64,000 bases of DNA from Sphingobacteriales bacterium 44-15 (GTDB taxonomy: Bacteria > Bacteroidota > Bacteroidia > Chitinophagales > Chitinophagaceae), in NCBI GenBank assembly GCA_001899685.1, contig MKWG01000013.1, forward strand, positions 75,638-139,637. The letters are read 5' to 3'. Below the pieces are notes generated by a model that did no database searches, was not told the DNA's origin, and was given only the letters and a program-made list of their open reading frames with translations. The position numbers and the translations under genes were made by a program. Below are positions 4,766 to 26,717 of the stretch, piece by piece (position 1 is the first letter of the stretch; each line of letters begins with the position of its first letter).

Positions 4766-7216
4766 ATGAAATTTTTATCTTCCCATGTTGTTGTATGTAA
4801 AGAAAAACTATACTGTACTGCCGTCGCTTTTCTATTGCTCATCTCTGTTTTGCACACATTTGCCCAAAAAAATAATTTCTGTACTGTCACGGGAAAGCTG
4901 GTGGATGCCGAGCATAATACAGCGCTGGGATTTGCTACGGTAAGCTTATTTGCCACCGGGGACAGTGTTGCTGTCAGCACCATTAATACTGCGGAGGACG
5001 GAAGTTTTTCGATCAGTGCATCTCCCGGCAGCTACCGGGTTGAAATTGATTTCATCGGGTATGAATCCTACCGGTCGTCCCTCCTCCAGCTTTCGACAGG
5101 CCACCCGCTTCATAAGCTGGGAACGATCAAACTGAAAGCCTCTACCAAAACACTTGATGAAGTATTGGTGCGTGCTGAAAAAAGCAGCATGACATTATCT
5201 CTTGATAAAAGGATATTCAACGTTGGAAAAGATCTTGCTAATGCAGGAGGAAATGCAGCAGATATATTGAGCAATATTCCTTCGGTAGCTGTGGATGCTG
5301 ATGGCAATGTGAGCCTGCGGGGCAGCAGTGTCCGTATTTTGATTGATGGCAAGCCTTCCGGTCTGGTCAGCATTAAAGGCGGTGCAGGTCTTCAGCAGTT
5401 GCAGGGCAGCATGGTAGACCGGGTGGAGATCATCACCAACCCTTCTGCACGCTATGAAGCCGAAGGGATGGGCGGTATTATCAATATTGTTCTGAAAAAA
5501 GAAAAAAGAGAAGGCTTTAACGGGTCTTTTGATCTTATTGCAGGATATCCTGAAAATTTTGGCGTGGCTGCCAATGTTAATTACCGGAAGAAAAACCTGA
5601 ACTTCTTTATTAACTATACCACTTCTTATCGTAATGCGCCCGGAAAGAACAGCCAGTACCAGGAGTTTTACAGGAATGATACCACATTCATCAGCACCAA
5701 AGATATGGAGCATCATTTAAAGGGACTTTACAATACGGCGAGGGCAGGTCTGGATTATTATTTTGACGACAGGAATATTCTCACCGCAGCCTATACCTAC
5801 CGTATCAGCAAAGGAAAACGCTATTCGGATATCGTATATCATGATTATCTCAATTCCCTGAAAAACCCTGTTGATATCAGCTACCGCACCCAGGATGAGA
5901 CTGAAACAGAGCCTAATTCAGAATATGCGCTGACCTATAAGCGCAATTTCAAGAGGGAAGGGCAGGAACTGACAGCCGATGTAAGGTATCTCGACAACTG
6001 GGAGGATTCGGACCAGTTCTTTGGTGAGGATATCTATAACCCGGATGGCAGCCATTCCGGCATTCCTTACCTCCTGCAGCGGGCTGTAAATTATGAGACC
6101 GAAAAGCAATACCTGGTGCAGGTGGATTATGTGCATCCCTTTGGTGAAAAGGCAAAGTTTGAGACCGGTCTGAGAAGCAGCTTCAGGGATATGACCAATA
6201 ATTATACCGTCACCCAGCAAAACGAAGATGAGAGCTGGTTTGAAGTGCCCGGGCTTACCAATGATTTTGTATATAATGAAAAGATCAGTGCCCTGTATGC
6301 CATAATGAGCAATAAAGTGAAGAAGTTTTCCTACCAGGCGGGACTGCGTGCTGAGCTGACCGATGTTACCACCACGCTTAAGCAGACCAATGAAGTAAAT
6401 CCCAGGAAGTATACTAATCTTTTCCCCAGTGTGCATGTTACTTACGACCTGCCCAAAGGGCATGCTGTGCAGGTAAGCTATAGCAGGCGTATACGCAGAC
6501 CTGCCTATAACGATCTAAGTCCCTTTATGACCTATAGCGACAACCGCAATTACTGGAGCGGCAATCCCGATCTCAACCCGGAGTTCACCAATTCATTCGA
6601 AGCGGGGCATATCAAATACCTGAGTGGCGCTTCTATAAGCACTTCTTTTTATTACAGGTATACCAAAGGCAAGATAATGCAGGTGCGCAAAGTGGATGCA
6701 TCCGGTAATTCCGTAACGCTTCCTCAAAACCTGGCTACCGAAAATTCGTTTGGCGCAGAGCTTACAGGCTCTTATTCCCCCTGGCAGTGGTGGAAGATGG
6801 ACGGAAGCTTTAACTTCTTCCGCGCTATTACGGATGGCAGTAATCTTGATGAATCTTTTAAAAGCGATACTTATAGCTGGTTGTTCCGTTTTCTTTCGCG
6901 GATCACTGTATGGAAGAATACGGACATACAGTTGCGCGGCAACTATGAAGCGCCGCAAAAAACGCCGCAGGGCAGAAGAAAATCCCTTGCCACCATGGAC
7001 TTTGCGGTAAGCAAGGATATACTGAAAAACAATGCTACTATTACGCTCAATGTGGTGGACATTTTTAATTCAAGGAAATACCGCTCCGTTATAGAGGGAG
7101 ATGATTTCTATATTGTAACCAACTCGCAGGGAAGGATGCGCCAGGCAAATCTTACGTTCAATTACCGTTTGAGGCAGGCGAAGAAGAAGGAAAAAGTGTC
7201 GCTTGAAGGGGAGTAG
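4766..7216 (+). CDS. TonB-dependent outer-membrane beta-barrel receptor
   Basis: The 816-residue product has a signal peptide (about 1-33), a CarboxypepD_reg-like beta-sandwich (about 37-115, with LVDAEHNTALGFATVSL and GYESYR), a plug domain (about 120-225; LDEVLVRAEKS, GGNAADILSNIPSV, VRILIDGKPSG, VDRVEIITNPSARYEAEGMG) and an outer-membrane barrel of the OMP_b-brl_3 type to the C-terminus. It belongs to the receptors lacking SusD partners. It imports or binds an unknown ligand using TonB energy. Translation should begin at the ATG at 4766 and not at the TTG just before it. No regulator is adjacent. Confidence 0.88.
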   Translation: MKFLSSHVVVCKEKLYCTAVAFLLLISVLHTFAQKNNFCTVTGKLVDAEHNTALGFATVSLFATGDSVAVSTINTAEDGSFSISASPGSYRVEIDFIGYESYRSSLLQLSTGHPLHKLGTIKLKASTKTLDEVLVRAEKSSMTLSLDKRIFNVGKDLANAGGNAADILSNIPSVAVDADGNVSLRGSSVRILIDGKPSGLVSIKGGAGLQQLQGSMVDRVEIITNPSARYEAEGMGGIINIVLKKEKREGFNGSFDLIAGYPENFGVAANVNYRKKNLNFFINYTTSYRNAPGKNSQYQEFYRNDTTFISTKDMEHHLKGLYNTARAGLDYYFDDRNILTAAYTYRISKGKRYSDIVYHDYLNSLKNPVDISYRTQDETETEPNSEYALTYKRNFKREGQELTADVRYLDNWEDSDQFFGEDIYNPDGSHSGIPYLLQRAVNYETEKQYLVQVDYVHPFGEKAKFETGLRSSFRDMTNNYTVTQQNEDESWFEVPGLTNDFVYNEKISALYAIMSNKVKKFSYQAGLRAELTDVTTTLKQTNEVNPRKYTNLFPSVHVTYDLPKGHAVQVSYSRRIRRPAYNDLSPFMTYSDNRNYWSGNPDLNPEFTNSFEAGHIKYLSGASISTSFYYRYTKGKIMQVRKVDASGNSVTLPQNLATENSFGAELTGSYSPWQWWKMDGSFNFFRAITDGSNLDESFKSDTYSWLFRFLSRITVWKNTDIQLRGNYEAPQKTPQGRRKSLATMDFAVSKDILKNNATITLNVVDIFNSRKYRSVIEGDDFYIVTNSQGRMRQANLTFNYRLRQAKKKEKVSLEGE

Positions 7217-24354: not shown

Positions 24355-25065
24355 AATAACAGGATTAATATGATCAGATAATTAAAGCACGTTGCTAAAA
24401 TAACATGACCTTTTCCCTGTATCGCCGTAAATCGACAGGAATATGATTAAAATCGACAAAAGAAAAATGAATATCCGCCATGACGAATGCTTCCTGCATT
24501 TCTCGCAGCTGGTACAGATCTGTAACGCAGGCGTAGCGTGATAGCAGAGCTGCTGCCCGGGTGTTACTTGTTTTGCAATAGCAGAGGAGTGTAAATTCGT
24601 GGCTGTATCATTTGTGCCCTGTTCGTTAAGAAATTCAGATAAATAAAAGAGAGGTGGTAAGCCTGGGCGAAGCTACCAAGTCTGTGCCAGGGCGGAAATT
24701 TTAAAATATTAGTGTACGAAACTTATAGAAACTAGTTAAAAGATCCGGTTTCATCGGTTTTGAAAAGATATATTTGATCATACTCAGAAGCACTGTTATA
24801 TACTCCTGCTTTTTGGCAATTGACCTGAAAACAGGAATACAGCTAAGAAGGAATAGGCGATCAGCCGCTTATACATAAAGGGAAACATTGTACGCATAAT
24901 TTAAGAGAGGTAGTTATTAAATTATTTTGAGATAGTCGTCATATAGTTATACGTTGGCGATATTTTACAGCCTTTTAGTAACTAATTTAATTTTTTAAAT
25001 TAGTTAGGATAACTAACTATATTTGTCTTAGCAATATTGCTGCAGGACGAATTAATCACTACAAA
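24355..25065. other. 711-bp gap; possible gene remnant on minus strand
   Basis: The last 100 bases hold the thioredoxin-like gene's control region. On the minus strand 24607-24395 is an open stretch of 70 codons without a start: it contains TLLCYCKTSNTRAAALL, then DLYQLREMQEAF and FVDFNHIPVDLRRYREK. The first segment recalls the active-site strand and loop of rhodanese-like domains, but this is weak, and a competing frame on the same strand is also open. I see no complete gene. Confidence 0.3.
24980..25015 (+). promoter_or_regulatory. Operator-like palindromes before the thioredoxin-like gene
   Basis: Two elements abut. The first is a perfect inverted repeat, AACTAATTTAA (24980-24990), TTTT, TTAAATTAGTT (24995-25005). 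The second is TAGTTAGGATAACTA (25001-25015), arms TAGTTA and TAACTA around GGA, lying just before the -7 box TATATTTG (25018-25025). The core GTTAGGATAACTA recurs before the MarR gene. Confidence 0.6.
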
Positions 25066-25299
25066 ATGGAAAAATCAGTTTTTTATCATGCAGGTTGCCC
25101 TGTATGTATCAGCGCAGAGCACGACATTGTTGACCTTATAGGCGCCGGCAATGTGGAAGTGGTGCATATCGGAGAAGATCGTAACCGCATCGCAGAAGCA
25201 GAAAACGCAGGTGTAAGATCTGTTCCTGCCCTGGTAACACCCAACGGGAATGTGCTCCATATCAACTTTGGCGCTTCTATTGCTGATGTAAAAGGCTAA
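25066..25299 (+). CDS. Small thioredoxin-fold protein (CPVC)
   Basis: The 77-residue protein reads MEKSVFYHAGCPVCISAEHD, with a CPVC redox motif at 11-14 after a first beta strand, and then VEVVHIGEDRNRIAEAE and GVRSVPALVTPNG, the cis-Pro (VPAL) region of the thioredoxin fold. It is cytoplasmic and shorter than glutaredoxin or thioredoxin. It probably reduces or senses a thiol target. It is followed after 76 bp by a MarR regulator with a cysteine-rich tail, and both genes share a 13-bp operator-like sequence, which suggests one thiol-responsive unit. Confidence 0.8.
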   Translation: MEKSVFYHAGCPVCISAEHDIVDLIGAGNVEVVHIGEDRNRIAEAENAGVRSVPALVTPNGNVLHINFGASIADVKG

Positions 25300-25302
25300 A
25301 AA

Positions 25303-25334
25303 TTTGCCCCACATTGTTAGGATAACTACCTTTG
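25303..25334 (+). promoter_or_regulatory. Promoter and operator of the MarR gene
   Basis: TTTG (25303-25306), 20 bases, then TACCTTTG (25327-25334) match the Bacteroidota consensus. The 13-bp GTTAGGATAACTA (25316-25328) lies between and overlaps the -7 box; it is identical to the copy at 25003-25015, suggesting repression by the regulator itself. Confidence 0.65.
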
Positions 25335-25375
25335 TGGGGCATTTCACACAGTGGTGTAAAGCAATGCAAAGGAAT

Positions 25376-25990
25376 ATGGATAAATCTGATTTCGACCTGA
25401 CAGCACAAAACCAACAGACCGGGAGCAAGATCGTGGCATCCCTGGAAAGAATAGCGCAGGCGTTCCGCGTTTTGCTATGGGAAGAAAGCAAAATGTTCTC
25501 ATTAAGCCCTATCCAGGTACAGGTGCTTATTTTTTTGCTGCATCATAGTGAAGAAAAAAGGAAAGTTAGCTATCTGGCAGAAGAATTTAATATGACCAAA
25601 GCCACTATCAGCGACACCGTTAAAACGCTTGAGCAGAAAAAGCTTATTACCAAAGCATATGAACAACACGACACAAGAAGCTATATTATACACCTGACGA
25701 AAAAGGGTGAAGACATAGCCGCTAAAACATCCTTTTTCACTAAGGAAATAAGAACACCTGTTGATAAATTACATCCTGACGATAAAGAAAACCTGCTGTT
25801 AAGCCTGATAAGCATCATACGACATTTAAACCGCTCAGGAGTAATTACCATTCAACGGATGTGCATGACCTGTTCCTATTACCAATCATCAGGAAAAGGG
25901 CAAAAACATTTTTGCAAATTGCTTAATCAAAATTTGCATGCTGCAGACCTTCGGGTAGATTGTCCCGAACACCAAATGAAATATGAGTGA
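25376..25990 (+). CDS. MarR-family regulator with four-cysteine C-terminal tail
   Basis: The 204-residue protein has a MarR winged-helix domain (about 20-150): LSPIQVQVLIFLLHHSEE, KVSYLAEEFNMTKATISDTV with recognition helix, and the wing EQHDTRSYIIHLTKKG. An added tail (about 160-204) has CX2C at 163-166, C180 preceded by H178, and C196 with H199 (sequence CMTCSYY, HFCKLLN, DCPEHQ). Four cysteines plus histidines suggest a bound metal or Fe-S cluster and a redox or metal signal. The start at 25376 is chosen for a normal MarR N-terminus; an ATG four codons earlier is possible. Its end overlaps yggS by 8 bp. Confidence 0.85.
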   Translation: MDKSDFDLTAQNQQTGSKIVASLERIAQAFRVLLWEESKMFSLSPIQVQVLIFLLHHSEEKRKVSYLAEEFNMTKATISDTVKTLEQKKLITKAYEQHDTRSYIIHLTKKGEDIAAKTSFFTKEIRTPVDKLHPDDKENLLLSLISIIRHLNRSGVITIQRMCMTCSYYQSSGKGQKHFCKLLNQNLHAADLRVDCPEHQMKYE

Positions 25991-26717
25991 ACAAATTCTA
26001 CAAAACATTACCGCTATCAGGGAACGGATAAATAATGCCTGCAAAAAGGCTGGTAGGAACGAAAGCGAAGTAAAATTGCTGCTGGCTACCAAGACCGTTC
26101 CGGCCGAACGTATCAAAATGGCATTGCAGGCGGGACAAACACTGATAGCCGAAAACAAAGTACAGGAACTTAAAGAAAAGTACGAAGCCTTACGGGAAAT
26201 TCCCCATACCAATCATTTTATCGGGCATTTGCAAACCAATAAGATAAAAGATCTGCTGAGGTGCAATGTGTCCTGTATTCAGTCGCTCAACCGTTTGGAA
26301 CTGGCTGAAAAACTACATCATCGGTTACAGCCTGACAACAAAACTATGGAAGTGCTGATACAGGTAAATACTTCTTTTGAGGAAAGCAAATTTGGCGTTA
26401 GCCCCAGTGATACCATTGAGCTGATAAAACGGGTTGCACAACTGGAAACTCTGAAAATAAAAGGGCTGATGACTATAGGTCTATTAAGTGCGGAAGCTGA
26501 AAGAGTGCGTAAATGTTTCCGGCTGCTCAAAGACATTCAGCAACAGGTCATCGCTTTGAAAATCCCCGGAGTGGAAATGCAGGAGCTGTCAATGGGCATG
26601 AGCGGCGACCTGGAAACGGCTGTTGAGGAGGGCGCAACAATGGTAAGGGTAGGCACTGCCATTTTTGGACAAAGGTCAACTCCGGACAGCTATTACTGGA
26701 ATGAAAACAAAGGGTAA
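25983..26717 (+). CDS. YggS/PROSC-family PLP homeostasis protein
   Basis: The 244-residue protein is a fold-type III PLP-binding barrel. Signatures are LLLATKTVPAERI with the PLP lysine K37, LIAENKVQELKEKYE, HFIGHLQTNKIK, VLIQVNTSFEESKFGV, LMTIG, LSMGMSGDLETAVEEGATMVRVGTAIFG (cited in pieces). It buffers free PLP in the cytoplasm. Its ATG overlaps the stop of the MarR gene, so the two are translationally coupled; that placement outside the usual cell-division neighbourhood is unusual. The same frame stays open for 48 codons after the TAA, but the protein has its full family length already. Confidence 0.93.
   Translation: MSEQILQNITAIRERINNACKKAGRNESEVKLLLATKTVPAERIKMALQAGQTLIAENKVQELKEKYEALREIPHTNHFIGHLQTNKIKDLLRCNVSCIQSLNRLELAEKLHHRLQPDNKTMEVLIQVNTSFEESKFGVSPSDTIELIKRVAQLETLKIKGLMTIGLLSAEAERVRKCFRLLKDIQQQVIALKIPGVEMQELSMGMSGDLETAVEEGATMVRVGTAIFGQRSTPDSYYWNENKG

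Follow-up and report, generated by a model that had tools for sequence, protein, structure and literature searches.

A predicted MarR operator shared by a thioredoxin-like gene and a MarR-YggS operon, and its conservation in Bacteroidota

Autorepression by MarR-family proteins is of a known kind. In Staphylococcus aureus, MepR (mepRA) represses its own gene and its target through promoter sites in which it recognises GTTAG (PMC3617543, PMC8044140), an arrangement like the one we propose for the locus described here. The two proteins nevertheless share only about 25% identity, confined to the MarR domain, and MepR lacks a C-terminal Cys4 domain, whereas the MarR protein studied here carries such an extension of about 50 residues. 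The genomic setting differs as well: MepR is encoded beside a MATE efflux gene and has drug efflux targets, while the neighbours here are a thioredoxin-like gene and a YggS gene. We know of no terminator hairpin around a MepR operator. OhrR-ohr and other thiol-sensing MarR pairs likewise place the regulator beside the redox protein that it is thought to control, but OhrR has its reactive cysteine near the N-terminus and acts on Ohr, while this MarR has no N-terminal cysteine, has four invariant ones in its C-terminal extension and neighbours a thioredoxin-like protein. CioR of Chromobacterium violaceum is reported to be a MarR repressor of the cytochrome bd genes cioAB linked to NO, sulfide and cyanide (PMC11837568). 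It resembles this locus in that a MarR repressor and proteins of respiration or NO stress are encoded in one operon, and differs from it in genes and phylum. For the target protein itself, the comparison is with the thioredoxin 2k8s, a whole-length homologue. The genes concerned are:

25066..25299, + strand: thioredoxin-like protein, 77 aa, CPVC motif, assigned from structure and homologue matches
25376..25990, + strand: MarR-family regulator of 204 aa, counted from the start codon that agrees best with relatives (a further in-frame ATG lies upstream at 25364)
25983..26717, + strand: YggS-family PLP protein (TIGR00044, E=5e-59)

A rare repeat and its register in relatives

The 64-kb window, by which we mean the whole 64,000-nucleotide stretch analysed, contains GTTAGGATAACTA exactly at 25003-25015 and 25316-25328, and our re-scan reproduced both coordinates of the initial annotation to the base. 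Allowing up to 2 mismatches added one further window match, at 6024, with 1.4 expected, and the 16-mer GTTAGGATAACTAACT has its second copy, with one mismatch, at the other site. Few window 13-mers have an exact second copy within 400 bases, and the others resemble short tandem or local repeats. Frequent occurrence elsewhere in the genome had been named as the finding that would speak against an operator; the core 11-mer GTTAGGATAAC has 2 copies in the 6,006,143-base genome, both at this locus, and its backward-read control has 6 copies in the same 6.0 Mb. Of the two -7 boxes, TACCTTTG (25327-25334) overlaps the second 13-mer by two bases, and TATATTTG (25018-25025) lies two bases past the first.

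The MarR operons of relatives yield the operator consensus AGTTAGGAnTCCTAACT, a 17-bp palindrome with half-sites AGTTAGGA-n-TCCTAACT, in which the GTTAG half-site is nearly invariant. A palindrome of 17 bp at the regulator's own operon is in keeping with the MarR family, whose operators span about 16-20 bp near their own promoter, and in relatives the operator mostly stands at the operon head with ATATTTG directly after it. Two copies occur here:

25002..25018, + strand: operator 1 (O1), AGTTAGGATAACTAACT, 17-bp palindrome with axis 25010, 2 mismatches to the consensus
25315..25331, + strand: operator 2 (O2), TGTTAGGATAACTACCT, same register as O1, axis 25323, 4 mismatches to the consensus

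O1, with the letters AGTTAGGA-T-AACTAACT, is a degenerate version of the consensus, and its sequence is identical in two relatives (L038 and L105). O2, which reads TGTTAGGA-T-AACTACCT, is the weaker copy in this genome; in 33 named loci, a site of its class (type 2) begins 18-22 nt past the final codon of the thioredoxin-like gene. The palindrome first proposed, TAGTTAGGATAACTA with axis 25008, turned out to be a local reading only, and we dropped that axis because relatives conserve axis 25010. Searching the whole genome with the strict palindrome TTAGTTAnnnTAACTAA revealed no wider regulon, the sole perfect copy being the one here; with 2 mismatches it matched 19 other places, and the backward control gave more. 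Fuller operator patterns had no genome matches beyond these sites.

Several features of the surrounding DNA may be recorded separately. Upstream of O1, 24908-25006 holds more TAGTTA/TAACTA words that are not obviously conserved in relatives, among them AGGTAGTTAT at 24908-24917, which matches the right part of O2 in reverse complement, and ATATAGTTA at 24941-24949. A perfect 12-bp inverted repeat at 24979-25006, likewise not obviously conserved, overlaps the left arm of O1. The roughly 640 bases at 24355-25000 contain no convincing gene; a short minus-strand open reading frame near 24805-24900 with a secreted-like start (MYKRLIAYSFLAVFLFSG) and an immediate stop is perhaps a gene remnant.

Conservation was scored in two sets: 299 genomes of the family searched for the MarR gene (47 positive), and a named set drawn from a large collection with each species represented by a single genome, from which the best 80 MarR loci were kept. 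At 3 or fewer mismatches, the operator preceded the MarR operon at 75 of these best 80 named loci, where the reversed pattern was found once, and with the MarR gene at 30/40 family loci (reversed control, 0/40). Divergent family loci without an operator at fewer than 5 mismatches numbered 8/40, indicating that distant MarR relatives changed specificity or lost the operator. Operator plus -7 box (at most 2 mismatches) occurred in 25 of the 299 family genomes, all within the 47 that carry the MarR gene (Fisher p = 8e-24), and the pairing recurs across Bacteroidota and in a few other phyla. The comparison of upstream regions in related genomes that the initial annotation had suggested gave the result it predicted, with the operator kept alongside the MarR gene. 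Matches with 3 mismatches in five MarR-less genomes (G028, G068, G089, G195 and G241) were taken as chance; four such matches (L084, L086, L093 and L095) have unrelated sequence downstream, G028 lying outside that comparison. Two loci from Pyrinomonadaceae and Acidobacteria records (L162 and L163) have the same order of MarR, operator and thioredoxin-like/DUF2024 genes and are about 70% identical, which suggests transfer between phyla or mis-binned contigs.

Promoter boxes and the hairpin around O2

Both operators lie at predicted promoters, P1 and P2, and two further palindromic elements accompany them:

25018..25025, + strand: -7 box TATATTTG of P1 (thioredoxin-like gene), sigma-A consensus
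25030..25041, + strand: mini-palindrome AGCAATATTGCT, beginning at the predicted P1 +1, arms covary
25303..25306, + strand: -33 box TTTG of P2, at the spacing of most type-2 sites
25327..25334, + strand: -7 box TACCTTTG of P2 (MarR-YggS operon), predicted +1 about 25339
25305..25341, + strand: hairpin UGCCCCACA...UGUGGGGCA around O2, terminator-like, on the same axis as O2 (25323)

The Flavobacterium sigma-A box TAnnTTTG sits at -12 to -5 (PMC9723704), from which transcription is predicted to start at 25030 for P1 and at about 25339 for P2. The P1 -7 box directly adjoins O1, and the exact TATATTTG box is present in 57 of the 89 distinct type-1 (P1-class) sites of relatives. This -7 box is clear and the -33 region looser, a strict TTTG at -33 often being absent from P1-class sites. 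P2 has both Bacteroidota sigma-A boxes (TAnnTTTG at -7, TTTG or TTG at -33), separated by 20 bp; among type-2 sites, TTG stands at exactly that spacing in 28/35 and a TAnCTTT(G/A) box is found in 33/35. O2 fills the P2 spacer between the two boxes and overlaps the -7 box. In this phylum a sigma-70 style promoter scan is uninformative.

In P1 promoters the arms of the mini-palindrome change together (GGC/GCC, AGC/GCT, GAC/GTC), with 2.38 of 4 outer pairs formed as against 1.83 (sd 0.08) when the right halves were re-dealt and 0.5-1.6 pairs in the off-register control. Its counterparts in relatives (GGCAATATTGCC, GACAATAATGTC and others) belong mostly to thioredoxin-headed operons, and AGCAATATTGCT may be a 5'-terminal mRNA hairpin or a second operator.

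The hairpin around O2 has a predicted RNA fold of -21 kcal/mol (z -4.6), a stability reached by 0 of 200 shuffles, and its stem is GC-rich, as in intrinsic terminators. Outside the operator, the stem covaries in 35 distinct relatives (CCCC/GGGG, CCTC/GAGG, CTTC/GAAG, CTCC/GGAG), with compensatory double changes in 43 cells, where shuffles gave 13.1 (sd 2.6) and slid controls 10-18. Kinship among sequences can push covariation above shuffles, and the slid and type-1 controls therefore matter; flanks of type-1 sites showed no extra pairing (2.36 pairs of 8, re-dealt 2.40). As a protein that reads letters would not tolerate drifting ones, we take the outer stem to be an RNA feature. The U-run after the hairpin is short in this genome (AUUUC), a mechanical terminator scan does not list the hairpin, and Rfam had no match at this locus; in many relatives an A-tract precedes the hairpin and a T-rich stretch follows it. 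Given the short U-run and the result of the scan, termination is an inference, and the hairpin is probably the terminator of the thioredoxin-like gene. Within 40 bp, site 2 looks like both that terminator and a repressible promoter for the MarR operon. The earlier view of site 2 as an operator is supported by the relatives; the terminator-like hairpin, the conserved axis and the wider regulon were absent from it.

The Cys4 MarR protein and the genes behind the operator

The regulator matches Pfam MarR_2 above the cut-off (E=3e-11). Its AF2 model (pLDDT 83) shows a winged helix, which matches solved MarR structures, and a small C-terminal beta domain that holds the cysteines and is modelled at lower confidence (about 65-71). 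The nearest solved relative is MepR, in the profile comparison (4ld5, E=7e-11) as well as in the fold comparison (4l9t/4lln, E=5e-7); that this relative reads GTTAG gives independent support for a GTTAG half-site read by the present MarR. Solved MarR proteins align only up to about residue 153, leaving the extension without a solved sequence match there. In the 204-aa form the only cysteines are at 163, 166, 180 and 196, a C-x2-C-x13-C-x15-C pattern whose middle spacing is shorter in some relatives, and all four are invariant in 38/38 family sequences and 54/54 aligned sequences. By analogy and gene content, we tentatively suggest that the Cys4 motif could sense a redox or NO signal through a bound metal or Fe-S cluster.

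The thioredoxin-like protein has 2k8s ('Thioredoxin') as its closest PDB entry over its full length (E=2e-31), and matches Pfam Thioredoxin_3 below the cut-off only. Its AF2 model (pLDDT 92) follows the thioredoxin-type beta-alpha-beta-alpha-beta-beta-alpha order, and C11, C14 and P54, within the motifs CPVC and SVPAL, are invariant across 64 loci; the element order, CxxC and cis-Pro site of the thioredoxin fold are thus all present. The YggS gene overlaps the MarR stop by 8 bases, from which the two are probably one operon, and in many relatives it adjoins the MarR gene or shares its cluster.

Across relatives, the operator heads operons before a varying gene, encoding the thioredoxin-like protein, a protoglobin (PF11563, E=2e-33), DUF2024 (PF09630), the secreted-looking c10 protein or YggS. 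MarR is what these operons have in common; their other genes differ from one genome to the next. In one genome (G282) a detached thioredoxin-like gene keeps the operator 40 kb from MarR, and in another (G216) a second operator lies on a different contig from MarR, before a decayed thioredoxin-like copy and c10. At these detached operators, regulation would be in trans. In the open literature we found no text on MarR with protoglobin in Bacteroidetes, and one incidental paper on DUF2024.

Some details of these operons are worth noting. The G216 site (L081, G216:C31) runs from 1501 through the operator and the decayed thioredoxin-like copy to an intact c10 gene. The c10 family comprises secreted-looking proteins of 245-260 aa without a Pfam match, often directly behind the operator (with MarR turned to the + strand: L044 6435-7172, L055 5854-6636, L068 5355-6128). 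A second family without assigned function, c19 (about 82 aa, e.g. L056 7495-7743), shares operons with DUF2024 and c10. Three operators per operon, before the thioredoxin-like gene, c10 and the DUF2024/MarR part, are seen in L036/L110, L105, L151 and L136; in L036 a different hairpin could form at the middle operator, through pairing of its core GGATTCC with GGAATCC a short way downstream.

Proposed repression and its alternatives

Together, these data argue that the MarR protein very probably represses its own operon and the thioredoxin-like gene, acting on P2 and P1 through O2 and O1. A MarR dimer would bind the palindrome AGTTAGGA-n-TCCTAACT at both predicted operators. At O1 it would abut the P1 -7 box and block the thioredoxin-like gene; at O2 it would fill the P2 spacer and block its own MarR-YggS operon. 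The placement of both sites against or between promoter boxes fits repression. The hairpin around O2 would end the P1 transcript and yield mainly a short thioredoxin-like mRNA, and the P2 transcript, starting past the left arm of the hairpin, would allow MarR and YggS to be made separately. At lower confidence, a redox, NO or metal signal might relieve repression by acting on the invariant Cys4 site, whether this holds an Fe-S cluster or zinc or serves as free thiols, which we propose because the alternative first genes encode protoglobin and the thioredoxin-like protein. The initial annotation had already suggested that MarR represses itself and the thiol protein, and operator conservation, the tracking of operator with MarR, the detached copy and the promoter placement all favour this at the level of sequence.

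Another regulator could in principle bind the palindrome and count MarR among its targets, since the site of any regulator could head the operon in this way. We consider this improbable, since the palindrome tracks this MarR in 25/25 genomes, MarR is the common operon member while other genes vary, and GTTAG is the signature of MepR, its nearest solved relative. Slightly less probable still is that MarR activates, perhaps through a bend that it puts into a long spacer: some MarR proteins do activate, and in P1 a strict TTTG is often missing at -33, but the sites abut or overlap the -7 box and occupy the stretch between -33 and -7, where a dimer, once bound, keeps polymerase out, and autoregulated MarR genes of such layout are mostly repressed.

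The clear covariation of the stem, with the A-tract before and T-rich stretch after it common in relatives, might come from a site 2 that is an intrinsic terminator alone, with operator likeness at the apex incidental and the MarR operon expressed by read-through from P1. This we rate as improbable as activation, given that the apex GTTAGGA...CTAnCTTT is nearly invariant while the stem drifts and that TTG keeps the -33 spacing in 28/35 sites; a terminator needs neither such an apex nor such a box. Chance recurrence of an AT-rich word has a negligible claim even in an AT-rich region with several TAGTTA/TAACTA words, and is refuted by a core unique to the locus genome-wide and an operator conserved over many families. 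Within the repression that we favour, a more ambitious version seems to us rather doubtful: P2 could unite a repressible promoter, an operator and the terminator for the gene before it, all about a common axis within 40 bp, and MarR bound there would also act on polymerase arriving from P1 and set both initiation and the transcript ratio, with MarR representing a new Cys4 class of metal- or Fe-S-dependent sensor for protoglobin and thioredoxin-like genes.

We found no description of this operator or regulon in the open literature. What is likely new is the operator with its regulon, a Cys4 MarR subfamily that probably regulates protoglobin and thioredoxin-like genes, and the composite of promoter, operator and terminator. 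The regulon is sharp and phylogenetically wide, extending over Bacteroidota and records labelled Ignavibacterium, Chlorobi, Balneolaceae and Acidobacteria, and its MarR subfamily has no solved member or, in the open literature searched, described member. The composite is compact, its operator being preserved at the tip of an RNA stem whose letters drift. The part played by DUF2024 and other target families of unassigned function becomes testable under the regulator's inducer, and a stress-type regulon is now directly testable.
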